This document shows positions 10,223 through 61,141 of a DNA stretch of 64,000 nt, one piece after another. Positions within the stretch are counted from its first letter, which is position 1. Every line of letters begins with the position of its first letter. Position numbers and translations under genes: made by a program. The notes below the pieces were generated by a model, which searched no databases, was not told the origin of the DNA, and saw only the letters and a list, made by a program, of their open reading frames with translations. Source of the DNA: Limnoperna fortunei (lineage: Eukaryota; Mollusca; Bivalvia; Mytilida; Modiolidae); the NCBI GenBank assembly GCA_944474755.1, contig OX104114.1, positions 27,861,220 through 27,925,219 of the forward strand, written 5' to 3'.

Positions 10223-11631
10223 TGTCTCGCCTGCGACGAAAGTCGCTGGAGGCGAGACATATGTATGGGAATCCGGCGGCGGCGACGTAAACACTTGACA
10301 TCTTGCTTCATATCTTTGTAAGCCCAAGACCTAGGTCCATCAAATTTGGTCCAGAGGTAGCTTATGATGAGTACTTGCCAGTCAGTCACCTGTCACCTGA
10401 CCTTGACCTCAATTTCACGGTCCAGTGACTACGTTAAAGTTTTTGGGTTACGACAGTTCCTCTGTAACTATGCATGGTAGGATGACAATATTTGGTGTAT
10501 AGGTTGCTGATGACTAGTACATGACTGTCTGGTAGGTATCACCTGACCTTGACCTCAATTTCACGGTCCAGCGACTACGTTAAAGTTTTTGGGTTACGAC
10601 AGTTCCTCTGTAACTACGCATGGTAGGATGACAATATTTGGTGTATAGGTTGCTGATGACTAGTACATGACTGTCTGGTAGGTGTCACCTGACCTTGACC
10701 TCAATTTCACGGTCCAGCGACTACGTTAAAGTTTTTGGGTTACGACAGTTCCTCTGTAACTACGCATGGTAGGATGACAATATTTGGTGTATAGGTTGCT
10801 GATGACTAGTACATGACTGTCTGGTAGGTGTCACCTGACCTTGACCTCAATTTCACGGTCCAGCGACTACGTTAAAGTTTTTGGGTTACGACAGTTCCTC
10901 TGTAACTACGCATGGTAGGATGACAATATTTGGTGTATAGGTTGCTGATTACTAGTACATAACTGTCTGGTAGGTGTCACCTGACCTTGACCTCAATTTC
11001 ACGGTCCAGTGACTACGTTAAAGTTTTGGGGTTACGACAGTTCCTCTGTAACTATGCATGGTAGGATGACAATATTAGGTGTATAGGTTGCTGATGACTA
11101 GTACATGACTGTCTGGTAGGTGTCACCTGACCTTGACCTCAATTTCACGGTCCAGCGACTACGTTAAAGTTTTGGGGTTACGACAGTTCCTCTGTAACTA
11201 CGCATGGTAGGATGACAATATTTGGTGTATAGGTTGCTGATGACTAGTACATGACTGTCTGGTAGGTGTCACCTGACCTTGACCTCAATTTCACGGTCCA
11301 GCGACTGCATTAAAGTTTTTGGGTTACGATAGTTCCTCTGTAACTACGCATGGTAGGATGACAATATTTGGTATATAGGTTGCTGATTAATAGTACATGA
11401 CTGTCTGGTAGGTTCCACCTGACCTTGACCTCAATTTCACGGTCCAGTGACTACGTTAAAGTTTTTGGGTTACTGCTGTTCCCCTGTAACTATGCAGGGT
11501 ATGGTGACAATATTTTGTATACAGGCCGCTGCTGATATTTAATGCTATTTACGTAATGCTTATGACGAAATTTATTTTCGTTACTGATGCGGAATGCAGG
11601 CGAGACGTTTTTCTGTGTCCACACTTGTTTA
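10223..11631 (+). mobile_element. Element with 146-bp tandem array, copy 1 (8 monomers)
   Basis: The head is a hairpin, GTCTCGCCTGCGAC-GAAA-GTCGCTGGAGGCGAGAC, followed by a GGC-rich spot. Monomers of exactly 146 bp start (at AATTTCACGG) at 10411, 10557, 10703, 10849, 10995, 11141, 11287 and 11433. The tail reads GCAGGCGAGACGTTTTTCTG and ends CCACACTTGTTTA. Copy 2 at 12632-13605 has the same head and tail but five monomers. The length difference, 435 bp, is three monomers minus a 3-bp GGC difference. Monomers are nearly identical apart from the diverged first and last. It lies upstream of the POLE3 start codon, probably in a 5' untranslated intron. No protein is encoded. Class not assigned. 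Confidence 0.75.
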
Positions 11632-31250: not shown

Positions 31251-31527
31251 ATCAAATTTTTCTTTCATTTTGTAATCCAAGATATTCAGGTCTAGAAATT
31301 TTTTTTTCATTAAACCGATGAAATTGTTATCCTTGAAAATGAACGTCACAGGACGAACTATTTTTTCGAGTACCGTTTTCAAGGGGTGAACTTATAAATC
31401 TCTAGCAACCCGGTCTGAAGATAATGGTATGAACAATCTATATTAATGATTTGGTAATACAATTACTAAAGATTCGTGTGATTTTACTTCATTTTCATTT
31501 AAATAACACTGAAAAATCATCACAATA

Positions 31528-33010
31528 GTCCAGAGTGGAGGCACATGTGTAAAGGTCTTTGTCAAAAGTCCAGAGTGGATACACATGTTTATAGGTCTCT
31601 GTCAAAAGTCCAGAGTGGATACACATGTATATAGGTCTTTGTAAAAAGTACAGATGAGAGGCACATGTGTATAGGTCTTTTCAAAAGTCCAGAATGGAGG
31701 CACATGTGTATAGGTCTTTGTCAATAGTCATAAGTGGATATACATGTGTATATGTCTTTGTCAATAGTCCAGATTGGAGACACATGTGTATAGGTCATTG
31801 GCAATAGTCCAGAGTGGATGCATGTTTGTATAGGTCTTTGTCAATAGTCCAGAGTGGAGACACATGTGTATAGGTCTTTGTCAAAACTCCAAAGTGGATA
31901 CACATGTATATAGGTCTTTGTCAAAAGTACAGATTAGAGGCACATGTGTATAGGTCTTTTCAAAAGTCCAGAATGGAGGCACATGTTATAGATCTTTGTT
32001 AATAGTCCAGATTGGAGGCACATGTGTAATGGTCTTTTCAAAAGTCCAGAATGGAGGCACATGTTAAAGATCTTTGTCAATAGTCCAGATTAGAGGCACT
32101 TGTGTATAGGTCTTTGTCAAAGGTCCAGATTGGAGGCACATGTCTATAGATCTTTGTCAATAGTCCAGATTGGAGACACATGTGTTTAGGTCTTTGTCAA
32201 AAGTCCAAAGTGGAGGCTCATGTCTATAGATCTTTGTCAATAGTCCAGAGTGGAGGCACATGTGTATAGGTCTTTGTCAATAGTCATAAGTGGAGGTACA
32301 TGTGTATAGGTCTTTGTCAATAGTCCAGAATGGATGCACATGAGTATAGGTCTTTGTCAATAGTCCAGCGTGGAGGCACATGTCTATAGATCTTTGTCAA
32401 TAGTCCAGATTGGATACACATGTACATTGTATATAGGTCTTTTGTCAAAAGTCCAGAGTGGATACACATGTATATTGGTCTTTGTCAAAAGTACAGATTA
32501 GAGGCACATGTGTATAGATCTTTGTCAATAGTCCAGATTGGAGGCACATGTGTACAGGTCTTTTCAAAAGTCCAGAATGGAGGCACATGTTAAAGATCTT
32601 TGTCAATAGTCCAGATTGGAGGCACATGTGTATATATAGGTCTTTGTCAAAGGTCCAGATTGGAGGCACATGTCTATAGATCTTTGTCAATAGTCCAGAT
32701 TGGAGACACATGTGTATAGGTCTTTGTCAAAAGTCCAAAGTGGAGGCTCATGTCTATAGACCTTAGTCAAAAGTCCAGATTGGAGGCACATGTGTATAGG
32801 TCTTTGTCAAAGGTCCAGATTGGAGGCACATGTCTATAGATTTTTGTCAATAATCCAGAGTGGAGGCACATGTGTATAGGTCTTTGTCAATAGTCATAAG
32901 TGGAGGTACATGTGTATAGCTCTGTCAATAGTCCAGAATGGATGCACATGTGTATAGGTCTTTGTCAGTAGTCCAGAGTGGACGCACATGTGTATAGGTC
33001 TTTGACAAAA
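31528..33010. repeat. 40-bp minisatellite, about 37 units
   Basis: Units begin GTCCAGAGTGGAGGCACATG and continue TGTATAGGTCTTTGTCAAAA, about 40 bp each, for nearly 1.5 kb with many point variants and some 39- or 44-bp units. Variant units recur in order: blocks at 31900-32260 and 32460-32760 share the same succession, so larger segments were also duplicated. Since 40 is not a multiple of 3, the 88-residue reverse frame (32445-32711) is not protein. Confidence 0.95.
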
Positions 33011-33546
33011 GTAAAGCAATTTCATACATAATCTATGTCCTAAAGAAGTCAATCTTACAACATAACGCACTTTTAATATAATTTCAAATGTACATTGACC
33101 TTGTCATATTTTGTGGCATTTTTACACATCTTTTAACTGTTTTTCAACCATAAGATCAGTTTTCTTTAAAAAAAATGACACTGTTATTACCTGTTATAAT
33201 GAAAATAAAACCATGTTTGCTGTTAATAGTCAGAAAACTGTTACTGTAACTGTTTTACAGATTTTTTCTGTTATCTCTTAATTCATTTTATTCACCACCT
33301 TTTTAATGTAATAGAGTCTTCCTATGAACGGAGGAATATACTTAAGATCACATACGAGTTCCTATAGAAACACGGAATAATGTATCGATTAGATTCTGCT
33401 GTTATCTGTTTCTTCAGTTTGTGAACTTATTGTTTTCTGATTTCTTGTGTAAATTGATGTTATCTCTTATCATTATCTAAAATTAAGTATGTATTTAGTC
33501 AGAATCTGAAAAAATATCGATTGATTCAAGCTGTGTGATAAAAAAC

Positions 33547-40470: not shown

Positions 40471-41127
40471 TTACAGTTGTTTTGCATAACACTTTGTCGT
40501 TTTTACATCGGTATTCTTAAAGACTATTTCGCCGTCAATTTTATAATCATCATGTCGTAATTCTTGTATTATCTCGAATCCCAATTTTTCACTCGCTTTC
40601 TGTGAACCTATTGCAGTGCACTCTATATGAATGCAAACGGGACCGAGTCCTAGTTTTTTAGCAAATAACACTGCCGATTGCATTGTTTTTGTAGCAAGTC
40701 CTTTATGTCTGTATTTTCTGTGTGTACACAGACTGGATAATCCAACAGTGAAATCGACGTTAAAATACTTGTATACATCAATTTCATTACTTTTGTGTTC
40801 TAAAAATGCCAAAATTTGTGCCCACTCCTTATTAGTTGTTTGTGATGAATCGGCAGGCTGGTCTTTCCTGAATATGCCTATTCCGGCAGAAGCAATAATT
40901 TCATTATTTTTATTATCCACTAGTAAAACTGACAGGTTTTGTTTATAAAATACGGATAAATATCGCGCCATTTCTCCATCAAATTTTAAACCAATAGATT
41001 TACTCAAGTTTTCATCTGGAAAGAAGTGTACCCTTAGAAACTCGATAAAATCCATTGTACGCGAGTCTGAAAGCAACTCCAAGTGCGAGTCTGGAAACTC
41101 CATCGATTGGCTGATTTCTTCCAAGGC
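40471..41127 (-). CDS. GNAT gene, last coding exon (218 codons plus stop)
   Basis: The exon opens after the acceptor TTTTTTTGTTTTAG (41128 and up) in phase 0 and ends TAA at 40473-40471. It holds the whole acetyltransferase domain. It is intact, with no frameshift. Confidence 0.9.
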   Translation of the reverse strand, partial: ALEEISQSMEFPDSHLELLSDSRTMDFIEFLRVHFFPDENLSKSIGLKFDGEMARYLSVFYKQNLSVLLVDNKNNEIIASAGIGIFRKDQPADSSQTTNKEWAQILAFLEHKSNEIDVYKYFNVDFTVGLSSLCTHRKYRHKGLATKTMQSAVLFAKKLGLGPVCIHIECTAIGSQKASEKLGFEIIQELRHDDYKIDGEIVFKNTDVKTTKCYAKQL

Positions 41128-44100
41128 CTAAAACAAAAAAATCATAGTGACCTGTACGTGTATTCCATAACTAATGGCTAATTGTCCTGTGCACTGCCCG
41201 TGTTGCCTGATTTTTTTTTATTATACTGGAAGAGTAACGGGAACTACTATAATAAAAGAGACTGTACTGGAGTATATGTTTAATGAAAAATGTTTAACAA
41301 TTTTCACGTATTCATTGTTGTCTTTTATACATTTGCGCGGAAAGACAACGGACGTGTCAGGGGCGGTTACAGGATTTTCGAAAAGGGGGGCGTAAAAAGG
41401 GGATATCGGAAAAGGAGGGCCACGAAGTGGTCCCGCAGAGGCGCATTTACGGCAGGGGTAGTACCGTTAATGCATTAATTTATGGCAAGGACGAGCGGGG
41501 ATTACATTTTTGCCGTTGGCGCTGGTTGTTACCCTCCCTGTTCTCTTTTTTTCTTTCCTTTTTTTAAAAGGGGGGGGGGGGGCGTACGCCCGTACGCCAC
41601 TTACGCTTCCTGAATCCGCCACCGACCGTGTAAGTAAATTCAGCTAATGCGGGTGATCATTATTCCAGGTTGGCAATTTTAGTTCTGAGCGGGTGATAAT
41701 TTTTTAATATCACCCTTAAACTTCGACTGGAGCGGATGATAATTTTTCCGGTTCGGTCATCTCTGGTCTCATGTGTTAATTTCTACTGATTCCGATTTTA
41801 GCCCCGCCAATTATAGCAACGGGTGTTAATTCCTCGTGTTTTCGTCCCAACGGGTGATATAACAAAAATTAACGCCGACTCAGAACGGAGATTGCCGAAC
41901 ATGAAAATTATCATCCGATCCAGTCGAAGTTTACGAATGATATAAAAATTATCAACCGCTCAAAACGAAAATTGCCAACAAGGAAAATGATTAGCCGCAT
42001 CAGCTAAAATTTACTTGCACGTCGTTTGTCCCTTTCGCGCAAAAATGTCCGAGGCACAACAAATACATGAAAATGTGCAAAAATTATTCGAAAACAGCTA
42101 GTAGACAAACATTTTCTATTAAAAATATAATTCAGTACAGTATCTATATGGTAGTTCACGTTTCTTCTTTAGATAAAAGGCATTTAGTATAATAAAAAAA
42201 TCATACTGTCTTTGAACTGTTACGGTAGATTATCACATGAAGAAAAAAATCGAGGGTGAAAATTTTTTTCTTCATGTAATAATCTACCATAATACCCTCG
42301 TTCAAATGCAGTATTATTATATTTTATTACATGAATGGAATTTTGCGTGTTTTTGATTGGTCTAAAAACAACTTTTGGGTCACAATAAATCGCAACAGTA
42401 CTAAAATTACATAAAATGTGTGTACGCTGCACGATTCCGCTGCCTAGTAGTCAAGCGGAATACGATATCGACCTGGTTTTTATGTTTTAGCCAATCAGAA
42501 TAGCCGTCTTAACAAATTCATTCGTCCAATCAAATCGATTGTAATAATTGTACGTCGTGCGTGACGACAACAAATGGCAGAAACGTCGGCTCTGCGATAT
42601 GTTTATTCATTTATATTCTTCTCAATATTTGAAACTGGAATTTCAGGATTACCAGCAAATTGATATCAAAATGCAGTATTAAATATAAAAATATTAAGGG
42701 TAACAACAATTACAAAATGTAAGCAGGGGCTCCAGTAGAAAAGGCATCCTCTGTTTTTCTGATCGAGGGGAGATGGTGGTTTTATTCATGTAATAAAACA
42801 ATTAATGACTTTGATATACGGTCGCTATCAGGATTGATCAGCCCTCAAAAATGTATATTCACCTCGCCTAGCGGCTCGGTGAATATTACATTTTCTCTGG
42901 CTGATAAATCCTGATAGCGACCTATATCAAAGTCATTAATTGTATAATATCACCCGTTGGTATGAAAGCCACAGGAATTAACTCTCGTTGCTATAATAAT
43001 GGACTGGGCTAAAATAGTAATCAAGACAGTAAAACTTGGCACATATGGTCACTGTCTAATAAAAAGACAGAATTATTTGCATGAAGTATAAAAAAAGACA
43101 AAATTACGTCAAATATTTACAAAATATAAAAATATTTAAAGACTAAATCAATGTATAAATTTTAATTCCAGATTAAACAAAACGTTAACAATAGTAATAG
43201 CATTTACTTACTGTGTAAAAGGTCATTGGTCTTATCATGGTCAACAAAATTAGGCCAGTCAACAATTACCGATTTAAAGGGCTATTGGTAATTTGCGGAA
43301 CGGAACGGAACGGAACAAGCATTGAGGTACCAATTAGGGTAATCAAAAATCACGTTTATATATTAACCATTAGGTGTTTAAAAGATTTACAAGTGTTATT
43401 TCTGTATATTTAAGCTATTGCTAACCTGTTCACTATAGACGTTTTTTTGGTATTGTACCTTTCAACAGGTGCAACAACATTAGTGATTAATAAAGATACA
43501 TTGCAAGTTACTTTACGGTAGAAAATATCAGATAATTGACAAAAAACAGGAAATTTTAACGAAAAAATAACTAAACTGACAGGTTAATAAATATCGAAAG
43601 CCATAGGACAGTATTAAGTTCACTAAGTGAATATCAGTCTTATTAAAATTATATCTTTCACTTGCTCCCCCTTTTTGTTATGTGGCTACGCAGCGGCGAC
43701 AATTAGAAAAAAGTGAAGAGCAAGTGAAATATTTAAAAATGTAAATATGATGGACTCAAAAGGCCTTTCATAATTGTCACAAACTATGCTGTTCCGTTCC
43801 GTTCCGTTAATTACCGTTACCTATATAGCTAACGGTAATTAACGGAACGGAACGGAACAATGATATTTTTTCAACATTTCATACTGTATTTATAGAGATG
43901 AAGGTTCGTTTCATTAAGCAGATGTTTATTTTAAGGCTTGTGGTGTGGGGTCCACATTAAACTATATAAATGGATTCTCCTCATTTTTTGCAACAGTTTG
44001 CTATGGAAAATAACATGCGGGTTCTCAACAGCTCTATATGCAAGGGCTAAACATTAATACTTTAATAACTTTTAGAAAGAAATATATTACTATTTGTATA

Positions 44101-47100
44101 TAACGTAACGGAATGAAACGTGTTTAAAATTACAAATCGTGATATACATACATACTACACGGCGATTAAAAAAAAAACTGTGTAGCGGTTCCAGATTTTT
44201 TTGTATTACCTTTGAACATAGGCACACAGCAACATTGAATATTAGTAATAGATCCGTTGCAAGTTAACGCCAGAAAATATCAGATAATTGAAAAAAGAAT
44301 GGATCTTTTAGAGAAAAAATGAGTAAACTGACAGGTCGAAAAACATTCAACTGTATTAATTTCACTAAGTTTCCGTCGATATTAATCTTATAAAAATTAT
44401 ATCTTTCACTTGCTCCATGCGTTTTATAATTGTCACAAAATATGATGTTCCGTTCCGTTCCGTTAATTACCGTTACCTATATAGCTAACGGTAATTAACG
44501 GAACGGAACGGAACAATGATATTTTTACAACATTTCATACTGTATTTACGGACATTAAGGTTCTTTTAATTAAGCAGATGTTTATTTTAAGGCTTGTGGT
44601 GTGGGGTCCACATTAAACTATATAAATGGATTCTCCTCATTTTTTTTGCAACAGTGTGCTATGGAAAATAACATGCGGGTTCTCAACAGCTCTTTATGCA
44701 AGGGCTAAACATTAATGCTTTAATAACTTTTAGAAAAAAATATGTTGTTTTGATCCGATTTGATAATAACCGTTACTTATATTACTATTTGTATATAACG
44801 TAACGGAATGAAACGTGTTTAAAATTACAAATCGTGATATACATACATACTACACGGCGATTAAAAAAAAACTGTGTAGCGGTTCCAGATTTTTTTGTAT
44901 TACCTTTGAACATAGGCACACAGCAACATTGAATATTAATAATAGATCCGTTGCAAGTTAACGCCAGAAAATATCAGATAATTGAAAAAAGAATGGATCT
45001 TTTAGAGAAAAAATGAGTAAACTGACAGGTCGAAAAACATTCAACTGTATTAATTTCACTAAGTTTCCGTCGATATTAATCTTATAAAAATTATATCTTT
45101 CACTTGCTCCATGCGTTTTATAATTGTCACAAAATATGCTGTTCCGTTCCGTTCCGTTAATTACCGTTACCTATATAGCTAACGGTAAGTAACGGAACGG
45201 AACGGAACAATGATATTTTTACAACATTTCATACTGTATTTACGGACATTAAGGTTCTTTTAATTAAGCAGATGTTTATTTTAAGGCTTGTGGTGTGGGG
45301 TCCACATTAAACTATATAAATGGATTCTCCTCATTTTTTGCAACAGTGTGCTATGGAAAATAACATGCGGGTTCTCAACAGCTCTATATGCAAGGGATAA
45401 ACATTAATACTTTAATAACTTTTAGAAAAAAATATGTTGTTTTGATCCGATTTGATAATAACCGTTACTTATATTACTATTTGTATATAACCATTAGGTG
45501 TTTAAAAGATTTACAAGTGTTATTTCTGTATATTTAAGCAATTGCTAACCTGTTCACTATAGACGTTTTTTTTGGTATTGTACCTTTCAACAGGTGCAAC
45601 AACATTAGTGATTAATAAAGATACATTGCAAGTTACTTTACGGTAGAAAATATCAGATAATTGACAAATAACAGGAAATTTTAACGAAAAAAATAACTAA
45701 ACTGACAGGTTAATAAATATCGAAAGCCATAGGACAGTATTAAGTTCACTAAGTCAGTATTAAGTTCACTAAGTGAATATCAATCTTATTAAAATTATAT
45801 CTTTCACTTGCTCCCCCTTTTTGTTATGTGGCTACGCAGCGGCGACAATTAGAAAAAGTGAAGAGCAAGTGAAATATTTAAAAATGTAAATAACATGGAA
45901 TCAAAAGGCCTTTCATAATTGACACAAACTATGCTGTTCCGTTCCGTTAATTACCGTTACCTATATAGGTAACGGTAATTAACGGAACGGAACGGAACAA
46001 TGATATTTTTTCAACATTTCATACTATATTTATAGAGATGAAGGTTCGTTTCATTAAGCAGATGTTTATTTTAAGGCTTGTGGTGTGGGGTCCACATTAA
46101 ACTATATAAATGGATTCTCCTCATTTTTTGCAACAGTCTGCTATGGAAAATAACATGCGGGTTCTCAACAGCTCTATATGCAAGGGCTAAACATTAATAA
46201 TTTAATAACTTTTAGATAAAATATGTTGTTTTGATCCGATTTGATAATAACCGCTACTTATATTTGTATTTGTATATAACGTAACGGAATGAAACTTTTT
46301 TAAAATTACAAACATGATATACATACATACTACACGGCGGTTTAAAAAAAAACTGTGTAGCGGTTCCAGATTTTTTGTATTACCTTTCAACATAGGCACA
46401 CAGCAACATTGAATATAAATAATAGATCCGTTGCAAGTTAACGCCAGAAAATATCAGATAATTGAAAAAAGAATGGATCTTTTAGAGAAAAAATGAGTAA
46501 ACTGACAGGTCGAAAAACATTCAACTGTATTAATTTCACTAAGTTTCCGTCGATATTAATCTTATAAAAATTATATCTTTCACTTGCTCCATGCGTTTTA
46601 TAATTGTCACAAAATATGCTGTTCCGTTCCGTTCCGTTAATTACCGTTACCTATATAGCTAACGGTAATTAACGGAACGGAACGGAACAATGATATTTTT
46701 ACAACATTTCATACTGTATTAACGGACATTAAGTTCCTTTTAATTAAGCAGATGTTTATTTTAAGGCTTGTGGTGTGAGGTCCACATTAAACTATATAAA
46801 GGGATTCTCCTCATTTTTTTTGCAACAGTGTGCTATGGAATATAACATGCGGGTTCTCAACAGCTCTATATGCAAGGGCTAAACATTAATACTTTAATAA
46901 CTTTTAGAAAGAAATATGTTGTTTTGATCCGATTTGATAATAACCGTTACTTATATTACTATTTGTATATAACGTAACGGAATGAAACGTGTTTAAAATT
47001 ACAAATCGTGATATACATACATACTACACGGCTATTAAAAAAAAACTGTGTAGCGGTTCCAGATTTTTTTGTATTACCTTTGAACATAGGCACACAGCAA

Positions 47101-50100
47101 CATTGAATATTAGTAATAGATCCGTTGCAAGTTAACGCCAGAAAATATCAGATAATTGAAAAAAGAATGGATCTTTTAGAGAAAAAATGAGTAAACTGAC
47201 AGGTCGAAAAACATTCAACTGTATTAATTTCACTAAGTTTCCGTCGATATTAATCTTATAAAAATTATATCTTTCACTTGCTCCATGCGTTTTATAATTG
47301 TCACAAAATATGCTGTTCCGTTCCGTTCCGTTAATTACCGTTACCTATATAGCTAACGGTAATTAACGGAACGGAACGGAACAATGATATTTTTACAACA
47401 TTTCATACTGTATTAACGGACATTAAGGTTCTTTTAATTAAGCAGATGTTTATTTTAAGGCTTGTGGTGTGAGGTCCACATTAAACTATATAAAGGGATT
47501 CTCCTCATTTTTTTTGCAACAGTGTGCTATGGAATATAACATGCGGGTTCTCAACAGCTCTATATGCAAGGGCTAAACATTAATACTTTAATAACTTTTA
47601 GAAAGAAATATGTTGTTTTGATCCGATTTGATAATAACCGTTACTTATATTACTATTTGTATATAACGTAACGGAATGAAACGTGTTTAAAATTACAAAT
47701 CGTGATATACATACATACTACACGGCGATTAAAAAAAAACTGTGTAGCGGTTCCAGATTTTTTTGTATTACCTTTGAACATAGGCACACAGCAACATTGA
47801 ATATTAGTAATAGATCCGTTGCAAGTTAACGCCAGAAAATATCAGATAATTGAAAAAAGAATGGATCTTTTAGAGAAAAAATGAGTAAACTGACAGGTCG
47901 AAAAACATTCAACTGTATTAATTTCACTAAGTTTCCGTCGATATTAATCTTATAAAAATTATATCTTTCACTTGCTCCATGCGTTTTATAATTGTCACAA
48001 AATATGCTGTTCCGTTCCGTTCCGTTAATTACCGTTACCTATATAGCTAACGGTAATTAACGGAACGGAACGGAACAGAACGGAACAATGATATTTTTAC
48101 AACATTTCATACTGTATTTACGGACATTAAGTTTCTTTTAATTAAGCAGATGTTTATTTTAAGGCTTGTGGTGTGGGGTCCACATTAAACTATATAAATG
48201 GATTCTCCTCATTTTTTTTGCAACAGTGTGCTATGGAAAATAACATGCGGGTTCTCAACAGCTCTATATGCAAGGGATAAACATTAATACTTTAATAACT
48301 TTTAGAAAAAAATATGTTGTTTTGATCCGATTTGATAATAACCGTTACTTATATTACTATTTGTATATAACCATTAGGTGTTTAAAAGATTTACAAGTGT
48401 TATTTCTGTATATTTAAGCTATTGCTAACCTGTTCACTATAGACTTTTTTTGGTATTGTACCTTTCAACAGGTGCAACAACATTAGTGATTAATAAAGAT
48501 ACATTGCAAGTTACTTTACGGTAGAAAATATCAGATAATTGACAAATAACAGGAAATTTTAACGAAAAAAAAATAACTAAACTGACAGGTTAATAAATAT
48601 CGAAAGCCATAGGACAGTATTAAGTTCACTAAGTGAATATCAATCTTATTAAAATTATTTCTTTCACTTGCTCCCCCTTTTTGTTATGTGGCTACGCAGC
48701 GGCGACAATTAGAAAAAGTGAAGAGCAAGTGAAATATTTAAAAATGTAAATAACATGGAATCAAAAGGCCTTTCATAATTGACACAAACTATGCTGTTCC
48801 GTTCCGTTAATTACCGTTACCTATATAGCGAACGGTAATTAACGGAACGGGACGGAACAATGATATTTTTTCAACATTTCATACTGTATTTATAGAGATG
48901 AAGGTTCGTTTCATTAAGCAGATGTTTATTTTAAGGCTTGTGGTGTGGGGTCCACATTAAACTATATAAATGGATTCTCCTCATTTTTTGCAACAGTCTG
49001 CTATGGAAAATAACATGCGGGTTCTCAACAGCTCTATATGCAAGGGCTAAACGTTAATAATTTAATAACTTTTCGATAAAATATGTTGTTTTGATCCGAT
49101 TTGATAATAACCGCTACTTATATTTGTATTTGTATATAACGTAACGGAATGAAACTTTTTTAAAATTACAAACATGATATACATACATACTACACGGCGA
49201 TTTAAAAAAAAAACTGTGTAGCGGTTCCAGATTTTTTGTATTACCTTTCAACATAGGCACACAGCAACATTGAATATAAATAATAGATCCGTTGCAAGTT
49301 AACGCCAGAAAATATCAGATAATTGAAAAAAGAATGGATCTTTTAGAGAAAAAATGAGTAAACTGACAGGTCGAAAAACATTCAACTGTATTAATTTCAC
49401 TAAGTTTCCGTCGATATTAATCTTATAAAAATTATATCTTTCACTTGCTCCATGCGTTTTATAATTGTCACAAAATATGCTGTTCCGTTCCGTTCCGTTA
49501 ATTACCGTTACCTATATAGCTAACGGTAATTAACGGAACAGAACGGAACAATGATATTTTTACAACATTTCATACTGTATTTACGGCATTAAGGTTCTTT
49601 TAATTAAGCAGATGTTTATTTTAAGGCTTGTGGTGTGAGGTCCACATTAAACTATATAAATGGATTCTCCTCATTTTTTTTGCAACAGTGTGCTATGGAA
49701 AATAACATGCGGGTTCTCAACAGCTCTAAATGCAAGGGCTAAACATTAATACTTTAATAACTTTTAGAAAGAAATATGTTGTTTTGATCCGATTTGATAA
49801 TAACCGTTACTTATATTACTATTTGTATATAACGTAACGGAATGAAACGTGTTTAAAATTACAAATCGTGATATACATACATACTACACGGCGATTAAAA
49901 AAAAACTGTGTAGCGGTTCCAGATTTTTTTGTATTACCTTTGAACATAGGCACACAGCAACATTGAATATTAGTAATAGATCCGTTGCAAGTTAACGCCA
50001 GAAAATATCAGATAATTGAAAAAAGAATGGATCTTTTAGAGAAAAAATGAGTAAACTGACAGGTCGAAAAACATTTAACTGTATTAATTTCACTAAGTTT

Positions 50101-53100
50101 CCGTCGATATTAATCTTATAAAAATTATATCTTTCACTTGCTCCATGCGTTTTATAATTGTCACAAAATATGCTGTTCCGTTCCGTTCCGTTAATTACCG
50201 TTACCTATATAGCTAACGGTAATTAACGGAACGGAACGGAACAGAACGGAACAATGATATTTTTACAACATTTCATACTGTATTTACGGACATTAAGGTT
50301 CTTTTAATTAAGCAGATGTTTATTTTAAGGCTTGTGGTGTTGTGTCCACATTAAACTATATAAATGGATTCTCCTCATTTTTTTTGCAACAGTGTGCTAT
50401 GGAAAATAACATGCGGTATCTCAACAGCTCTATATGCAAGGGCTAAACATTAATACTTTAATAACTTTTAGAAAAAAATATGTTGTTTTGATCCGATTTG
50501 ATAATAACCGTTACTTATATTACTATTTGTATATAACGTAACGGAATGAAACGTGTTTAAAATTACAAATCGTGATATACATACATACTACACGGCGATT
50601 AAAAAAAAACTGTGTAGCGGTTCCAGATTTTTTTGTATTACCTTTGAACATAGGCACACAGCAACATTGAATATTAATAATAGATCCGTTGCAAGTTAAC
50701 GCCAGAAAATATCAGATAATTGAAAAAAGAATGGATCTTTTAGAGAAAAAATGAGTAAACTGACAGGTCGAAAAACATTCAACTGTATTAATTTCACTAA
50801 GTTTCCGTCGATATTAATCTTATAAAAATTATATCTTTCACTTGCTCCATGCGTTTTATAATTGTCACAAAATATGCTGTTCCGTTCCGTTCCGTTAATT
50901 ACCGTTACCTATATAGCTAACGGTAAGTAACGGAACGGAACGGAACAATGATATTTTTACAACATTTCATTTTTATTTACGGACATTAAGGTTCTTTTAA
51001 TTAAGCAGATGTTTATTTTGGGGTTTGTGGTGTGGGGTCCACATTAAACTATATAAATGGATTCTCCTCATTTTTTTTGCAACAGTGTGCTATGGAAAAT
51101 AACATGCGGTATCTCAACAGCTCTATATGCAAGGGCTAAACATTAATACTTTAATAACTTTTAGAAAAAAATATGTTGTTTTGATCCGATTTGATAATAA
51201 CCGTTACTTATATTACTATTTGTATATAACGTAACGGAATGAAACGTGTTTAAAATTACAAATCGTGATATACATACATACTACACGGCGATTAAAAAAA
51301 AACTGTGTAGCGGTTCCAGATTTTTTTGTATTACCTTTGAACATAGGCACACAGCAACATTGAATATTAATAATAGATCCGTTGCAAGTTAACGCCAGAA
51401 AATATCAGATAATTGAAAAAAGAATGGATCTTTTAGAGAAAAAATGAGTAAACTGACAGGTCGAAAAACATTCAACTGTATTAATTTCACTAAGTTTCCG
51501 TCGATATTAATCTTATAAAAATTATATCTTTCACTTGCTCCATGCGTTTTATAATTGTCACAAAATATGCTGTTCCGTTCCGTTCCGTTAATTACCGTTA
51601 CCTATATAGCTAACGGTAAGTAACGGAACGGAACGGAACAATGATATTTTTACAACATTTCATTTTTATTTACGGACATTAAGGTTCTTTTAATTAAGCA
51701 GATGTTTATTTTGGGGTTTGTGGTGTGGGGTCCACATTAAACTATATAAATGGATTCTCCTCATTTTTTGCAACAGTGTGCTATGGAAAATAACATGCGG
51801 GTTCTCAACAGCTATATATGCAAGGGCTAAACATTAATACTTTAATAACTTTTAGAAAAAAATATGTTGTTTTGATCCGATTTGATAATAACCGTTACTT
51901 ATATTACTATTTGTATATAACCATTAGGTGTTTAAAAGATTTACAAGTGTTATTTCTGTATATTTAAGCAATTGCTAACCTGTTCACTATAGACGTTTTT
52001 TGGTATTGTACCTTTCAACAGGTGCAACAACATTAGTGATTAATAAAGATACATTGCAAGTTACTTTACGGTAGAAAATATCAGATAATTGACAAATAAC
52101 AGGAAATTTTAACGAAAAAAATAACTAAACTGACAGGTTAATAAATATCGAAAGCCATAGGACAGTATTAAGTTCACTAAGTCAGTATTAAGTTCACTAA
52201 GTGAAAATCAATCTTATTAAAATTATATCTTTCACTTGCTCCCCCTTTTTGTTATGTGGCTACGCAGCGGCGACAATTAGAAAAAGTGAAGAGCAAGTGA
52301 AATATTTTAAAATGTAAATAACATGGAATCAAAAGGCCTTTCATAATTGACACAAACTATGCTGTTCCGTTCCGTTAATTACCGTTACCTATATAGCCAA
52401 CGGTAATTAACGGAACGGAACGGAACAATGATATTTTTTCAACATTTCATACTGTATTTATAGAGATGAAGGTTCGTTTCATTAAGCAGATGTTTATTTT
52501 AAGGCTTGTGGTGTAGGGTCCACATTAAACTATATAAATGGATTCTCCTCATTTTTTGCAACAGTTTGCTATGGAAAATAACATGCGGGTTCTCAACAGC
52601 TCTATATGCAAGGGCTAAACATTAATAATTTAATAACTTTTAGATAAAATATGTTGTTTTGATCCGATTTGATAATAACCGCTACTTATATTTGTATTTG
52701 TATATAACGTAACGGAATGAAACTTTTTTAAAATTACAAATCATGATATACATACATACTACACGGCGATTTAAAAAAAAACTGTGTAGCGGTTCCAGAT
52801 TTTTTGTATTACCTTTGAACATAGGCACACAGCAACATTGAATATAAATAATAGATCCGTTGCAAGTTAACGCCAGAAAATATCAGATAATTGAAAAAAG
52901 AATGGATCTTTTAGAGAAAAAATGAGTAAACTGACAGGTCGAAAAACATTCAACTGTATTAATTTCACTAAGTTTCCGTCGATATTAATCTTATCAAAAT
53001 TATATCATTCACTTGCTCCATGCGTTTTATAATTGTCACAAAATATGCTGTTCCGTTCCGTTCCGTTAATTACCGTTACCTATATAGCTAACGGTAATTA

Positions 53101-56100
53101 ACGGAACGGAACGGAACAATGATATTTTTACAACATTTCATACTGTATTTACGGACATTAAGGTTCTTTTAATTAAGCAGATGTTTATTTTAAGGCTTGT
53201 GGTGTGGGGTCCACATTAAACTATATAAATGGATTCTCCTCATTGTTTTGCAACAGTGTGCTATGGAAAATAACATGCGGGTTCTCAACAGCTCTATATG
53301 CAAGGGCTAAACATTAATACTTTAATAACTTTTAGAAAAAAATATGTTGTTTTGATCCGATTTGATAATAACCGTTACTTATATTACTATTTGTATATAA
53401 CCATTAGGTGTTTAAAAGATTTACAAGTGTTATTTCTGTATATTTAAGCTATTGCTAACCTGTTCACTATAGACGTTTTTTGGTATTGTACCTTTCAACA
53501 GGTGCAACAACATTAGTGATTAATAAAGATACATTGCAAGTTACTTTACGGTAGAAAATATCAGATAATTGACAAATAACAGGAAATTTTAACGAAAAAA
53601 ATAACTAAACTGACAGGTTAATAAATATCGAAAGCCATAGGACAGTATTAAGTTCACTAAGTGAATATCAATCTTATTAAAATTATATCTTTCACTTGCT
53701 CCCCCTTTTTGTTATGTGGCTACGCAGCGGCGACAATTAGAAAAAGTGAAGAGCAAGTGAAATATTTAAAAATGTAAATAACATGGAATCAAAAGGCCTT
53801 TCATAATTGACACAAACTATGCTGTTCCGTTCCGTTAATTACCGTTACCTATATAGCTAACGGTAATTAACGGAACGGAACGGAACAATGATATTTTTTT
53901 CAACATTTCATACTGTATTTATAGAGATGAAGGTTCGTTTCATTAAGCAGATGTTTATTTTAAGGCTTGTGGTGTGGGGTCCACATTAAACTATATAAAT
54001 GGATTCTCCTCATTTTTTGCAACAGTCTGCTATGGAAAATAACATGCGGGTTCTCAACAGCTCTATATGCAAGGGCTAAACATTAATACTTTAATAACTT
54101 TTAGATAAAATATGTTGTTTTGATCCGATTTGATAATAACCGCTACTTATATTTGTATTTGTATATAACGTAACGGAATGAAACTTTTTTAAAATTACAA
54201 ACATGATATACATACATACTACACGGCGATTTGAAAAAAAAAACTGTGTAGCGGTTCCAGATTTTTTGTATTGCCTTTCAACATAGGCACACAGCAACAT
54301 TGAATATAAATAATAGATCCGTTGCAAGTTAACGCCAGAAAATATCAGATAATTGAAAAAAGAATGGATCTTTTAGAGAAAAAATGAGTAAACTGACAGG
54401 TCGAAAAACATTCAACTGTATTAATTTCACTAAGTTTCCGTCGATATTAATCTTATAAAAATTATATCTTTCACTTGCTCCATGCGTTTTATAATTGTCA
54501 CAAAATATGCTGTTCCGTTCCGTTCCGTTAATTACCGTTACCTATATAGCTAACGGTAATTAACGGAACGGAACGGAACAATGATATTTTTACAACATTT
54601 CATACTGTATTTACGGACATTAAGGTTCTTTTAATTAAGCAGATGTTTATTTTAAGGCTTGTGTTGTGGGGTCCACATTAAACTATATAAATGGATTCTC
54701 CTCATTTTTTTGCAACAGTGTGCTATGGAAAATAACATGCGGGTTCTCAACAGCTCTATATGCAAGCGCTAAACATTAATACTTTAATAACTTTTAGAAA
54801 AAAATATGTTGTTTTGATCCGATTTGATAATAACTGTTACTAATATTACTATTTGTATATAACGTAACGGAATGAAACGTGTTTAAAATTACAAATCGCG
54901 ATATACATACATACTACACGGCGATTAAAAAAAACTGTGTAGCGGTTCCAGATTTTTTTGTATTACCTTTGAACATAGGCACACAGCAACATTGAATATT
55001 AATAATAGATCCGTTGCAAGTTAACGCCAGAAAATATCAGATAATTGAAAAAAGAATGGATCTTTTAGAGAAAAAATTAGTAAACTGACAGGTCGAAAAA
55101 CATTCAACTGTATTAATTTCACTAAGTTTCCGTCGATATTAATCTTATAAAAATTATATCTTTCACTTGCTCCATGCGTTTTATAATTGTCACAAAATAT
55201 GCTGTTCCGTTCCGTTCCGTTAATTACCGTTACCTATATAGCTAACGGTAAGTAACGGAACGGAACGGAACGGAACAATGATATTTTTACAACATTTCAT
55301 ACTGTATTTACGGACATTAAGGTTCTTTTAATTAAGCAGATGTTTATTTTAGGGCTTGTGGTGTGGGGTCCACATTTAACTATATAAATGGATTCTCCTC
55401 ATTTTTTGCAACAGTGTGCTATGGAAAATAACATGCGGGTTCTCAACAGCTCTATATGCAAGGGCTAAACATTAATACTTTAATAACTTTTAGAAAAAAA
55501 TATGTTGTTTTGATCCGATTTGATAATAACCGTTACTTATATTACTATTTGTATATAACCATTAGGTGTTTAAAAGATTTACAAGTGTTATTTCTGTATA
55601 TTTAAGCTATTGCTAACCTGTTCACTATAGACTTTTTTTGGTATTGTACCTTTCAACAGGTGCAACAACATTAGTGATTAATAAAGATACATTGCAAGTT
55701 ACTTTACGGTAGAAAATAGCAGATACTTGACAAAAAACAGGAAATTTTAACGAAAAAAATAACTAAACTGACAGGTTAATAAATATCGAAAGCCATAGGA
55801 CAGTATTTAGTTCACTAAGTGAATATCAATCTTATTAAAATTATATCTTTCACTTGCTCCCCCTTTTTGTTATGTGGCTACGCAGCGGCGACAATAAGAA
55901 AAAGTGAAGAGCAAGTGAAATATTTAAAAATGTAAATAACATGGAATCAAAAGGCCTTTCATAATTGACACAAACTATGCTGTTCCGTTCCGTTAATTAC
56001 CGTTACCTATATAGCTAACGGTAATTAACGGAACGGAACGGAACAATGATATTTTTTCAACATTTCATACTATATTTATAGAGATGAAGGTTCGTTTCAT

Positions 56101-59100
56101 TAAGCAGATGTTTATTTTAAGGCTTGTGGTGTGGGGTCCACATTAAACTATATAAATGGATTCTCCTCATTTTTTGCAACAGTTTGCTATGGAAAATAAC
56201 ATGCGGGTTCTCAACAGCTCTATATGCAAGGGCTAAACATTAATAATTTATTAACTTTTAGATAAAATATGTTGTTTTGATCCGATTTGATAATAACCGC
56301 TACTTATATTTGTATTTGTATATAACGTAACGGAATGAAACTTTTTTTAATTACAAACCATGATATACATACATGCTACACAGCGATTTTTTTTTTGTAT
56401 TTTGTGACGCGGTACCAGATTTCTGGTATTACCTTTGAACATAGGCACAAAGCAACATTGATGATAAATAATAGGTCCCTTGGATGTTAACGCCAGAAAA
56501 TTTCAGATATTTAAAAAACGGGATGTTTTAAAGAAAAAATAAAGTAAACTGACAGGTCAATAAAAATCGAAAACCATAGGACGGTATTAAGTTCACTAAT
56601 GTTCCGTCAATATAGATCTTATTAAAATTATATCTTTCACTTGCCCCCCCCCTTTTTTGTAAAGCTTGCTGCGCTGTCAGCGGCGACAATAACAACACTT
56701 GAGGAGCAATTGAAATATTTAAACGTGTAAATAACATGCGGACACAAAGGGCCTTTCATAATTGTCACAAACTATGCTGTTCCGTTCCGTTCCGTTAATT
56801 ATCGTTACCTATATAGCTAACGGTAATTAACGGAACGCAACAATGACATTTTTTCAACAGCTCATACTGTATTTACGGAGATTAAGGTTCTTTTCACTAA
56901 GCAGATGTTTATTTTTAAGCTTGTGGTGTGGGGTCCACATTCAACTAAATAAATGCATTCTCCTCATTTTTTGCAACAGTGTGGTCTGGAAAATAACATG
57001 CGGATTCTCAACAGATCGCTATGCAAGGGCTATACATTAATAATTTAATAAGTTTTAGAAAAAAACATGTTGTTTTGATCCGATTTGATAATAACCGCTA
57101 CTTATATTGGTATTTATATATAACGTAACGGAATGAAACTTTTAAAATTACAAATCGTGATATACATACATACTACACAGTGATTTTTTTTAAATATATT
57201 TTGTGACTCGGTACCAGATTTCTGGTTTTACCTTTGAACATAGGTACAAAGCAACATTGATGATAAATAATTGGTCCCTTGGATGTAAACGCCAGAAAAT
57301 ATCAGATATTTGAAAAACGGATTGTTTTAAAGAAAAAAATGAAGTAAACTGACAGGTCAATAAAAATCGAAAACCATAGGACAGTATTAAGTTCACTAAG
57401 GTTCCGTCAATATAGATCTTATTAAAATTATATCTTTCACTTGCCCCCCCCTTTTTTTTGTTATGTGGCTACGCAGCGGCGACAATAAGAAAAAGTGAAG
57501 AGCAAGTGAAATATTTAAAAATGTAAATAACATATGGACTCGAAAGGCCTTTCATATTGTCACAAACTATGCTGTTCCGTTCCGTTCCGTTAATTACCGT
57601 TACCTATATAGCTAACGGTAATTAACGGAACGGAACGGAACAGCATATTTTGTGACAATTATAAAAGGCCTGGAGCAAGTGAAAGATATAATTTTAATTA
57701 GATTAATATTGACGGAAACTTAGTGAAATTAATACTGTTGAATGGTTTTCGACCTGTCAGTTTACTCATTTTTTTCTCTAAAAGATCCATTCTTTTTTCA
57801 ATTATCTGATATTTTCTGGCGTTAATACAAAAAATCTGGAGCCGCTACACAATTTTTTTTTAAAATCACCGTGTAGTATGTATGTATATCACGATTTGTA
57901 ATTTTAAACAAGTTTCATTCCGTTACGTTATATACAAATACCAATATAAGTAACGTACGGTTATTATCAAATCGGATCAAAACAACATATTTTTTTCTAA
58001 AAGTTATTAAAGTATTAATGTTTAGCCCTTGCATATAGAGCTGTTGAGAACCCGCATGTTATTTTCCATAGCACACTGTTGCAAAAAATGAGGAGAATCC
58101 ATTTATATAGTTTAATGTGGACCCCACACCACAAGCCTTAAAATAAACATCTGCTTAATTAAAAGAACCTTAATGTCCGTAAATACAGTATGAAATGTTG
58201 TAAAAATATCATTGTTCCGTTCCATTCCGTTCCGTTACTTACCGTTAGCTATATAGGTAACGGTAATTAACGGAACGGAACGGAACAGCATATTTTGTGA
58301 CAATTATAAAACGCATGGAGCAAGTGAAAGATATAATTTTTATAAGATTAATATCGACGGAAACTTAGTGAAATTAGTACTGTTGAATGGTTTTCAACCT
58401 GTCAGTTTACTCATTTTTTCTCTAAAAGATCCATTCTTTTTTCAATTATCTGATTTTTTCTGGCGTTAACTTGCAACGGATCTATTCTTAATATTCAATG
58501 TTGATGTGTGCCTATGTTCAAAGGTAATACAAAAAATCTGGTACCGCTACACATTTTTTTTTAAATCGCCGTGTAGTATGTATGTATATCACGATTTGTA
58601 ATTTTTAACACGTTTCATTCCGTTACGTTATATACAAATAGTAATATAAGTAACGGTTATTATCAAATCGGATCAAAACAACATATTTTTTTCTAAAAGT
58701 TATTAAAGTATTAATGTTTAGCCCTTGCATATAGAGCTGTTGAGAACCCGCATGTTATTTTCCATAGCACACTGTTGCAAAAAAATGAGGAGAATCCATT
58801 TATATAGTTTAATGTGGACCCCACACCACAAGCCTTAAATAAACATCTGCTTAATTAAAAGAACCTTAATGTCCGTAAATACAGTATGAAATGTTGTAAA
58901 AATATCATTGTTCCGTTCTGTTCCGTTCCGTTCCGTTAATTACCGTTAGCTATTTAGGTAACGGTAATTAACGGAACGGAACGGAACAGCATATTTTGTG
59001 ACAATTATAAAACGCATGGAGCAAGTGAAAGATATAATTTTTATAAGATTAATATCGACGGAAACTTAGTGAAATTAATACAGTTGAATGTTTTTCGACC

Positions 59101-61141
59101 TGTCAGTTTACTCATTTTTTCTCTAAAAGATCCATTCTTTTTTCAATTATCTGATATTTTCTGGCGTTAACTTGCAACGGATCTATTATTTATATTCAAT
59201 GTTGCTGTGTGCCTATGTTCAAAGGTAATACAAAAAATCTGGAACCGCTACACAGTTTTTTTTTAATCGCCGTGTAGTATGTATGTATATCACGATTTGT
59301 AATTTTAAACACGTTTCATTCCGTTACGTTATATACAAATACCAATATAAGTAACGGTTATTATCAAATCGGATCAAAACAACATATTTTTTTCTTAAAG
59401 TTATTAAAGTATTAATGTTTAGCCCTTGCATATAGAGCTGTTGAGAACCCGCATGTTATTTTCCATAGCACACTGTTGCAAAAAATGAGGAGAATCTATT
59501 TATATAGTTTAATGTGGACCCACACCACAAGCCTTAAAATAAACATCTGCTTAATAAAAAGAACCTTAATCTCCGTAAATACAGTATGAAATGTTGTAAA
59601 AATATCATTGTTCCGTTCCGTTCCGTTAATTACCGTTAGCTATATAGGTAACGGTAATTAGCGGAACGGAACGGAACCGCATATTTTGTGACAATTATGA
59701 AAGGCCCTTTGTGTCCGTATGTTATTTACATGTTTAAATATTTCAATTGCTCGTCAAGTGTTGTTATTGTCGCCACTGACAGCGCAGCAAGCATTACAAA
59801 AAAGGGGGCGGGGGCAAGTGAAAGATATAATTTTAATAAGATCTATATTGACGGAACCTTAGTGAACTTAATACCGTCCTATGGTTTTCGATTTTTATTG
59901 ACCTGTCAGTTAACTTTATTTTTTCTTTAAAACATCCCGTTTTTTTAATATCTGAAATTTTCTGGCGTTAACATCCAAGGGACCTATTATTTATCATCAA
60001 TGTTGCTTTGTGCCTATGTTCAAAGGTAATACCAGAAATCTGGTACCGCGTCACAAAATATAAAAAAAAAATCGCTGTGTAGTATGTATGTATATCATGA
60101 TTTGTAATTTTAAAAAAAGTTTCATTCCGTTACGTTATATACAAATACAAATATAAGTAGCGGTTATTATCAAACTGGATCAAAACAACATATTTTATCT
60201 AAAAGTTATTAAATTATTAATGTTTAGCCCTTGCATATAGAGCTGTTNNNNNNNNNNNNNNNNNNNNNNNNNNNNNNNNNNNNNNNNNNNNNNNNNNNNN
60301 NNNNNNNNNNNNNNNNNNNNNNNNNNNNNNNNNNNNNNNNNNNNNNNNNNNNNNNNNNNNNNNNNNNNNNNNNNNNNNNNNNNNNNNNNNNNNNNNNNNN
60401 NNNNNNNNNNNNNNNNNNNNNNNNNNNNNNNNNNNNNNNNNNNNNNNACTAATGTTGTTGCACCTGTTGAAAGGTACAATACCAAAAAAAAACGTCTATA
60501 GTGAACAGGTTAGCAACAGCTTAAATATACAGAAATAACACTTGTAAATCTTTTAAACACCTAATGGTTAATATATAAACGTGATTTTTGATTACCCTAA
60601 TTGGTACCTCCATGCTTGTTCCGTTCCGTTCCGTTCCGCAAATTACCAATAGCCATTTAAAGTCACACAGAGGTCACGAAAGATTAATAACTTTCACATT
60701 AAAATAGTTCTGATGTCTATGTTTCTTTGTTTTGTTTGGTTTTTTTGGTACTGGTTTTATTTCTTTTTATAATTATTTGCAAAGTAAACATTTTGTATAT
60801 ATAAATAAATACTTACAGGAAAACGGGCAAAATAGGCTACGTACAACTGTATATTTAACATAGACATTGAAAGAAATGTAATCGCTAGGGAAGGGGGGAC
60901 CACTGATATTTTTCAATAAACGTGCACACAAGGACCAACCATTTTCTTTTCTCGTTCTTTTCTTACTTAACAATCTAACTCCATGTCTTAAACTCACAAT
61001 ATTTAAACAAATAATTATTTTACTAAAATATGTAAAACGCACTGTTTACCAATTTATTCACGTATATATCTATAAACAGGAAAAAATGTTTATTCTTACC
61101 TGCTCCAGTTCTTGCCTGCTTTTAAGACAGTTGTTCGACAT
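40471..61141 (-). CDS. GNAT acetyltransferase, AANAT-like (two coding exons, about 20-kb intron)
   Basis: GNAT enzymes transfer an acetyl group from acetyl-CoA to an amine. The likely join is 61141-61100 plus 41127-40471, giving 232 aa, normal for arylalkylamine N-acetyltransferase-like proteins. The acetyl-CoA loop is RKYRHKGLA (about residues 151-159), following VGLSSLCTH. ASEKLGFEII (192-201) is the typical C-terminal GNAT motif, and DDYKIDGEIVF follows, as in invertebrate dopamine/arylalkylamine acetyltransferases. No signal peptide or membrane segment is apparent, so it is probably cytosolic. The substrate cannot be told from sequence. The long frame in the last exon appears to start at a TTG (41124), but an acceptor (TTTTGTTTTAG|GCC) lies 3 bp before it, so the start must be upstream. 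The intron carries the 17.4-kb array. Confidence 0.75.
41358..41626. mobile_element. hAT-like MITE, copy 2
   Basis: Ends CAGGGGCGGTTACAGGA (41358) and, inverted, GGTGGCGGATTCAGGA (about 41623). Interior words match copy 1 at 38816. It adds a G-run followed by CGTACGCCCGTACGCC. The flanks GGACGTGT and GACCGTGT are at best an imperfect duplication. It lies in the GNAT intron, about 230 bp before the last exon. The frames at 41174 and 41290 are repeat artefacts. Confidence 0.65.
41628..42020. mobile_element. Fold-back MITE, about 390 bp
   Basis: GTGTAAGTAAATTCAGCTAA and TGCGGGTGATCATTATTCC at the left pair with the right end ATTAGCCGCATCAGCTAAAA and TTTACTTGCAC. The pairing continues inward: GGCAATTTTAGTTCTGAGCG with CGCTCAAAACGAAAATTGCC, and CTTCGACTGGAGCGGATGAT with ATCATCCGATCCAGTCGAAG. 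A partial relative lies near 42950-43010 (ATATCACCCGTTGG). Confidence 0.75.
42224..42288. repeat. Perfect-looking hairpin
   Basis: GGTAGATTATCACATGAAGA pairs with TCTTCATGTAATAATCTACC around an AAAAAATCGAGGGTGAAAAT loop. It may be a small fold-back or the core of a larger element. Confidence 0.6.
42798..42943. mobile_element. Fold-back element, about 146 bp
   Basis: ACAATTAATGACTTTGATAT and GGTCGCTATCAGGATT pair with AATCCTGATAGCGACC and ATATCAAAGTCATTAATTGT. An inner stem, TATATTCACC/GGTGAATATTA, surrounds TCGCCTAGCGGCTCG. Non-coding. Confidence 0.65.
43280..43484 (+). repeat. Left terminal inverted repeat of the array
   Basis: Starts GGCTATTGGTAATTTGCGG, then four GGAAC repeats, AAGCATTGAGGTACCAATTA, and on through CCATTAGGTGTTTAAAAG and CAACAGGTGCAACAACATTA. 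The last part equals the right half of the long internal units. Confidence 0.9.
43820..57604 (+). repeat. Left arm: 19 tandem units in direct orientation
   Basis: Spacings between successive nodes are 656, 694, 790, 690, 694, 694, 782, 691, 693, 704, 693, 787, 691, 769, 693, 692, 773, 802 and 795 bp. Short units contain CTACACGGCGATT and CTCCATGCGTTTTATAATTG. Long units instead contain CCATTAGGTGTTTAAAAG and GGCTACGCAGCGGCGACAA. The unit after each long unit has a distinct start (TTTATAGAGATGAAGGTTCG), so units are organised in a higher-order pattern. Neighbours share private variants, for example ATTTTGGGGTTTGTGG in the units at 51020 and 51710, which points to recent local duplication. The reverse frames at 46202-46399 and 54091-54327 are artefacts. 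Confidence 0.9.
57570..57660. repeat. Inversion centre of the array
   Basis: At the node centred on 57604 both flanks read outward as the same family: the left flank ends CAAACTATGCTGTTCCG and the right starts GGAACAGCATATTTTGTGAC. Units to the left are in direct orientation and units to the right are reverse complemented. Confidence 0.9.
57604..60247 (-). repeat. Right arm: inverted units up to the gap
   Basis: Three full units (about 646, 701 and 690 bp) and a partial fourth are on the - strand. The partial one (59640-60247) carries GTCGCCACTGACAGCGCAGC, the complement of the diverged unit near 56640-56690 in the left arm. The frame at 59688-59930 is an artefact. Confidence 0.9.
60248..60447. 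other. Assembly gap of exactly 200 N
   Basis: A round 200-N run usually marks a gap of unknown length. The sequences on its two sides correspond to left-arm positions 43484 and 44027, so about 540 bp or more of array should lie here. Predicted frames through the N run are meaningless. Confidence 0.95.
60448..60654 (-). repeat. Right terminal inverted repeat of the array
   Basis: Reverse complement of 43280-43484 with only scattered differences (GGAGGTACC for GAGGTACC context, CAACAGC for CAATAGC, and A-run length). It ends CCAATAGCC directly before ATTTAAAG. Confidence 0.9.
60663..61099. other. GNAT intron remainder
   Basis: Non-coding AT-rich sequence between the array and the proposed first exon. 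The - strand frame 60773-61042 shows no family signature. Confidence 0.4.
61100..61141 (-). CDS. Probable first coding exon of the GNAT gene
   Basis: On the - strand an ATG (61141-61139, A at -3) opens MSNNCLKSRQELEQ and runs into CAG|GTAAG (donor from 61099). It ends in phase 0, matching the phase 0 acceptor at 41127, and the join reads ELEQ-ALEEISQ. No stop intervenes. It is the best candidate seen for the missing start; transcript evidence is lacking. Confidence 0.6.

Follow-up and report, generated by a model that had tools for sequence, protein, structure and literature searches.

The question of how satellite arrays come to occupy new places is old, and growth inside foldback elements has been proposed for Tetris, whose TIR-220 satellite in Drosophila virilis is the nearest known case (PMC4079207). 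Tetris makes target duplications of 8–10 bp, its long arrays are said to have grown inside the element, and large arrays were thought possibly to end its mobility (PMC4079207). Here we describe a locus of the bivalve Limnoperna fortunei, contained in a stretch of 64,000 nucleotides (assembly GCA_944474755.1, contig OX104114.1, forward-strand positions 27,861,220 to 27,925,219) that we call the window and in whose coordinates positions are given. An element of 17,375 bp at 43280-60654, lying in the first intron of a GNAT-type acetyltransferase gene, is very probably one non-autonomous copy of a foldback-type Mutator-like DNA transposon family, its arms expanded into a satellite-like array.

The L. 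fortunei element shares with Tetris a non-autonomous foldback form, tandem repeats in inverted arms and a stretch common to the repeats and the terminal domain. It differs in unit size (637–794 bp, against ~220 bp in Tetris), in the coding copies found here, where the Tetris account reports no transposase, and in an end-to-end CTATATAG-like palindrome that stands at every junction between units and is not part of that account as available (PMC4079207). Complete Tetris copies carry few repeats, and long arrays (up to 66) are proposed to disrupt the element, whereas here an array with 23 junctions keeps both ends and an exact target duplication (PMC4079207). Tm1 of Meloidogyne, a Mutator/Foldback family whose ends contain tandem motifs, repeats a motif of ~14 bp in 1–9 units, in contrast to the whole 700-bp units and the 20 junctions in one arm seen here (PMC3169594). 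Plant Mutator-like elements with tandem terminal inverted repeats (TIRs) resemble our element in having extra long ends inside, mostly in tandem, with one outer duplication and none at the inner ends, and their multiple copies suggest mobility, but in the sections of the account available each has one additional TIR or pair and not many tandem units (PMC3310237). Pearl-family miniature inverted-repeat elements of bivalves, such as DTC84 of Donax, likewise are small mobile elements that contain satellite-like tandem repeats, and a conserved palindrome lies close to the border between repeats; their arrays reach six monomers, and many-unit inverted arms such as those found here do not appear in the accessible part of their description (PMC5139131). 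The long inverted repeats of the foldback-like element Galileo also have internal tandem repeats, with further transposase binding sites, but Galileo belongs to the P superfamily, makes 7-bp duplications and is described with up to three 210-bp repeats (PMC3573991, PMC3688188). For hobo, a DNA transposon found in 13–19 tandem copies, reviews of the work of McGurk and Barbash speak of dimers of the whole element that then expand, the main route being insertion-site preference, and not of growth inside one element's arms (PMC12628747, PMC7214746). Our element stands apart from these systems in the size and number of its units, in having a palindrome at each junction and intact borders round an array this large, and in the coding copies that share its genome. 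We found no description of the family, or of a 17-kb array with intact ends, among the titles and abstract openings listed from an open-access library for satellites, foldbacks and Mutator-like elements (MULEs), and the end motifs, sought as text in papers, led to two papers, neither of them relevant.

On either side of the element stands the same 8-bp target duplication, ATTTAAAG, without a mismatch. Identity of 8 bp at two fixed positions has a chance of 3.7e-5 at the base composition of the window; further occurrences at 43134 and 15590 show that the 8-mer alone is not rare, and its weight lies in the exact placement at both element ends. Both ends begin outermost with GGCTATTGGTAATTTGCGG, followed by GGAAC-type 5-bp repeats, and the right end is an inverted copy of the left that differs by two substitutions and one 2-bp indel over a 205-bp alignment, which is halted by an assembly gap and not by divergence. 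Compared over 1000 bp each, in direct and in inverted orientation, the two flanks are otherwise no more alike than shuffled sequence (local scores of 24 in both cases; shuffle means ~25, maxima 33). The host gene is on the minus strand, with a 218-amino-acid frame at 40471-41127; a database protein (P0001) that is 94% identical to this frame has 14 extra N-terminal residues, which are encoded at 61100-61141, and it matches the exon joint. Together with the splice sites, this protein indicates that the first intron is real; it is 19,972 bp long, and the element makes up 87% of it. The original prediction, that the whole array behaves as one transposon insertion in an intron, with inverted ends of at least 205 bp and an exact 8-bp duplication on both sides, is thus borne out in each of these points. 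The features of the borders and of the host gene are as follows.

40471..41127, minus strand: host exon 2, GNAT domain (Pfam PF00583, E 1.7e-5), acceptor TTTTAG
43272..43279, no strand: left target-site duplication ATTTAAAG
43280..43820, plus strand: left terminal segment S00e, 541 bp, with GGCTATTGGTAATTTGCGG outer end, GGAAC-type repeats and a diverged unit body, closing at the first palindromic junction
60448..60654, minus strand: right outer end, inverted copy of 43280-43484 (205-bp alignment)
60655..60662, no strand: right target-site duplication ATTTAAAG
61100..61141, minus strand: coding part of host exon 1, donor GTAAGA, matching P0001 residues 1-14

The interior consists of 22 complete units (637–794 bp), in keeping with the more than 20 tandem units first claimed, and two terminal segments, with 23 palindromic junctions spaced 645–802 bp apart, of which 22 read CTATATAG and one CTATTTAG. 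As a single strand, the junction at 44477 is predicted to form a long hairpin (DNA energy -37.4 kcal/mol, z -14). Since the junction arms are similar to the outer ends (CTAACGGTAATTAACGG versus CTATTGGTAATTTGCGG in our own comparison), a unit border looks like two joined ends. Nineteen units (S01-S19) point right and three (S20-S22) point left, the switch falling exactly at junction 57604; the left arm measures 14,324 bp and has 20 junctions counting the switch, and the right arm measures 3,043 bp, gap included, and has three more. With 19 of its 22 complete units in the same orientation, the array is a long head-to-tail series of similar units, as in a satellite, and the long inverted arms of tandem repeats, varying in number between copies and between ends, are those of a foldback. 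The 15 A-type units have a median pairwise divergence of 2.8%, and S18 and S19 form an older unit class, S18 and the inner stretch of the right terminal segment being 3% apart.

43791..43858, no strand: first palindromic junction, arms of ~30 bp around CTATATAG at 43821-43828
44477, 45171, 45961, 46651, 47345, 48039, 48821, 49512, 50205, 50909, 51602, 52389, 53080, 53849, 54542, 55234, 56007, 56809, 57604, 58249, 58950, 59640: 8-mer starts of the remaining junctions
43821..57603, plus strand: left arm array of 19 forward units, S01-S19, with 12 of A type (~650-696 bp), 5 of B type (S03, S07, S12, S14, S17; 761-782 bp) and the older type S18, S19
45179..45960, plus strand: B-type unit S03, an A-type head joined to the left terminal segment from 43368 on
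57604..57611, no strand: orientation-switch junction CTATATAG, units tail to tail
57612..60247, minus strand: right arm array as far as the gap, with three whole units, S20-S22, in reverse orientation and S23e in part
60248..60447, no strand: assembly gap of 200 N, which parts the right end from the array

In 10 of the 15 other two-ended copies measured (see below), 532–562 bp separate the last junction from the right end, as against 1016 bp in the window, and the gap, which the original prediction does not mention, therefore probably hides another junction; if one outer-type unit is missing, the true gap would be nearer 530 bp than 200. No coding middle was found in the window's element, which has no frame of at least 100 amino acids and no match to the family transposase. 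A junction 22-mer scan of public collections gave 0 matches in genome_contigs and 0 in viral_contigs, a 69-amino-acid chance frame of the unit used as a protein probe had no match, and Rfam had none at gathering scores.

Other copies with the same ends and different unit numbers, for which a search had been suggested, were found in the same genome. The search with the outer end covered 1.335 Gb, with 40 of 161 candidates scored, and gave at least 41 outer-end matches, the window's two included; in the unit search 39 of 97 candidates were scored, and the window itself was not among the matches listed. Outer ends in other copies are 88–98% identical to those of the window. Seventeen two-ended copies were examined besides the window, and 14 of these have exact target duplications of 8–9 bp, all different: CCTTAAAT, CTCGAAAG, ATTTTTCCG, TTTTGCAA, TTAGAAAC, GTTTCAGA, TTATTATG, TCGCAAAGA, GAAATACT, CGTACTGC, TTTCAGAG, ACTAACCAG, TTTTTATT and, as a fourteenth, AAGTAAAT. 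The exceptions are C4c (7 of 8 positions matching), C15b (6 of 8) and C3c (no exact match); C7, C8, C14, C3d, C3e and C6c were left out of the two-ended counts, having one end, or two same-strand ends, within the 8.5–20 kb fetched. Flanks of 390 bp to the left and right were compared for the window copy and 15 others, C15b and C12s lying outside both this comparison and the table of end divergence; the only matches were one of 41 bp, shared by two right flanks, and those of C13's two flanks with each other. Similarity running past the borders into other copies, which had been named as an observation that would speak against an insertion, was not found, the window's flanks matching no flank of the 15 others.

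The CTATATAG junction is present in all 17 of the other copies inspected, which lie on different chromosomes, and the arms of the family are built of tandem units, mostly 600–890 bp, split by the same CTATATAG-type palindrome. Junctions number 2–8 in the 16 other two-ended copies scored in full, against 23 in the window with the same pattern, which tolerates four mismatches per arm and misses decayed junctions; C12s, scored in its left part only, has 6. In this partial survey the window's count is far outside the range of its relatives. At C8:58243200-58253199 (L033), two right family ends lie 205 bp apart in a stretch that also has 200 N, and at C8:58204995-58231524, up to ~48 kb from L033, family units are clustered in both orientations; these are possibly another large or rearranged copy.

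A transposase of MULEs is recognised by a D-D-E triad, a C-x2-H between the second D and the E, and a SWIM zinc finger. Three copies of the family (13, 20 and 41 kb) carry transposase sequence with these Mutator-type signatures between their arms; in the 41-kb copy C12s (C12:11642467-11683704; L028-L030, L040), which is two-ended, it is an open frame of 888 amino acids. The closest named homologue, at 50%, is from the mussel Mytilus galloprovincialis. Among the coding relatives, aligned with P0012, P0013, P0015 and P0021 left out of the 22 homologues, both D residues and the C-x2-H are kept in 19 of 19, and the E and the SWIM residues in 18 of 18. Pfam SWIM matches occur in 7 of the 19 members at E up to 1 (best 6e-5), the MULE and Transposase_mut models weakly match one of the 19 each (E 0.0059 and 0.017), and the family's own transposase matches neither of these two models; a sequence search against solved structures gave nothing useful, and Foldseek alone had no match at E 0.001. 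The RNase H-like transposase fold of MULEs is present, as are long inverted repeats (205 bp in the window, where the gap cuts the comparison short) and target duplications (8 bp in the window, exact 8–9 bp in 14 of 17 others) within the 8–11 bp described for Mutator-like elements (PMC6446971). The window copy, with no transposase of its own, is non-autonomous. Membership of hAT, suggested by the nTnnnnAn look of ATTTAAAG, was dropped: among 14 duplications tallied (the window's and 13 others) three are of 9 bp and, of the eleven 8-mers, a T stands at position 2 in only eight; the transposase, too, speaks against it.

Some further frames accompany the family. The 41-kb copy has, within ~30 kb from its left and 0.7 kb at its right, a 369-amino-acid frame, protein-kinase-like by eye, and a 299-amino-acid frame, which are either cargo or nested elements. 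Upstream of the transposase, a 286-amino-acid frame (L023:712-1569; C12s 9648-10505, minus strand) has a weak match to Pfam Herpes_teg_N (E 6e-5, below the cut-off), a protease-like domain, and because the transposase homologue P0022 also has this domain, the family transposase may be fused to a protease-like domain. In copy C4b, a 145-amino-acid frame (L015:572-1006, minus strand) has Cys and His residues with a WRKY/FLYWCH-like look and a weak Pfam WRKY match (E 0.033, below the cut-off).

The B units bear on how the array grew. All start as an A head, and past the motif at 43368 they track the left terminal segment with differences of 1.35–2.0%, and the five form a window-only clade with support of 100/100, in a tree whose bootstrap had not settled; because other copies also have internal matches to part of the outer end, B-like chimeras may be recurrent in the family. 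An A1 head follows a B-type tail at 6 of 6 forward junctions and occurs at 0 of the 13 other forward junctions, including the one after S18's related B2 tail (3.7e-5), and multi-unit blocks are duplicated in the array at 97–98% identity. This linkage of variants across junctions and the duplicated blocks point to amplification of blocks spanning junctions, as in unequal exchange, and not to insertions of single units. The arms would thus have grown through unequal exchange of such blocks, including a chimera with the left terminal segment that gave the B units. Selection on the junction palindromes was considered and is not supported: A-unit diversity is 0.040 in the arms and 0.029 in the body, and in 81% of body window pairs it does not exceed that of the arms; the count over all unit types (0.040 against 0.088) is dominated by the B chimeras.

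In the explanation that we prefer, a transposase from coding copies would have bound the outer ends and placed a multi-unit element in the GNAT intron, part of the unit diversity being older than the insertion. Multi-unit elements of the family are able to move intact, since a stretch of 5591 bp in C6b and C15, with eight junctions at corresponding spacings, is 99.5% identical, yet the two copies have different duplications and unrelated flanks. Within each of these two copies the left and right ends differ by 3.4–3.9%; end divergence can therefore predate insertion, and the 2/205 of the window is only an upper bound on insertion age. Dating amplification against insertion by end divergence, weakened in this way by C6b and C15, gave no resolution. 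The window's unit classes are ~8–12% apart, far above that bound: S18 and an A unit have 69/678 differences (p 1e-6), and deep A-unit splits of 26–31 differences in 589–680 bp, taken as 30/650, also exceed it (p 0.018), although unit pairs are not independent in either case. Unless later homogenisation made its ends more alike, the element therefore arrived with several unit classes; what landed was multi-unit and may have brought any share of the 23 junctions. A variant in which a few-unit copy landed in the intron and most growth to 23 junctions took place there has, in our judgement, slightly less than an even chance. The 2–8 junctions of the relatives speak for it, as do the B units, which are confined to the window and are roughly as far from S00e as one end is from the other, and the near-identity of the closest unit pairs (S05-S06, 3/686; S03-S14, 3/760), which like the B chimera are not distinguishable in age from the insertion, so that some duplication may be as young as the insertion or younger; the deep A splits and S18, with classes already present on arrival, speak against it, and in a family surveyed in part a source copy with a large array may exist. 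Of the two scenarios first offered, an already amplified array moving as a unit is accordingly favoured at least in part, by C6b and C15 and by the distance between unit classes, and growth in place may also have contributed.

Two further accounts fare much worse. Repeated local insertion of short elements into one target site, as in the double insertions behind hobo dimers, would leave an 8-bp duplication between units, and the 8-bp spacer with end-like sequence on both sides has that look, but we consider it very unlikely: the CTATATAG junction of all 17 other copies is inherited and not a local target, it differs from the outer duplications of the copies, variant linkage indicates block exchange, and the limits of the spacer are ambiguous, down to 4 bp when aligned to the outer end by eye. 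With the spacer common to other copies, a local double insertion was rejected as the origin of the window's units; at the origin of the family such an event may have taken place. An ordinary satellite with chance transposon-like edges, or an assembly construct from a palindromic artefact, is likewise very unlikely; the gap in the right end and the single orientation switch at a palindrome could be so explained, but not the 205-bp inverted ends with their exact duplication, the different exact duplications of the 14 relatives, or the reversed units, whose best identities to forward units are only 97.3–98.7% in the unit alignment and which hence are not copies of them. Excision as a circle with rolling-circle replication was also considered and has no simple fit with the tail-to-tail junction.

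Elsewhere in the window, another element that bears repeats occurs twice, at 10218-11631 and 12627-13605; the two copies are ~95-96% identical, end in GTCTCGCCTGC...GCAGGCGAGAC and have 7.7 and 4.7 tandem units of 146 bp, the same ends with different unit numbers in one window. Tandem arrays also lie at 31523-33012 (37 x 40 bp) and 14875-15400 (18 x 29 bp).

We put forward, as a tentative idea that we think more probably wrong than right, that this Mutator-like foldback family serves as a satellite vehicle, in which a transposase acting on the outermost ends only would move arrays of 700-bp end-derived units wholesale (17 kb here; a relative is 41 kb long) and seed full-length arrays at new, genic sites, while the junction palindromes would keep the array recombining and invertible. 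The family offers a testable series in one genome, from 2 to 23 scored junctions, with coding copies and two near-identical eight-junction insertions. It shows that a DNA transposon can carry its tandem units along intact when it moves, and that an element of 17 kb can, with clean edges, fill 87% of an intron.
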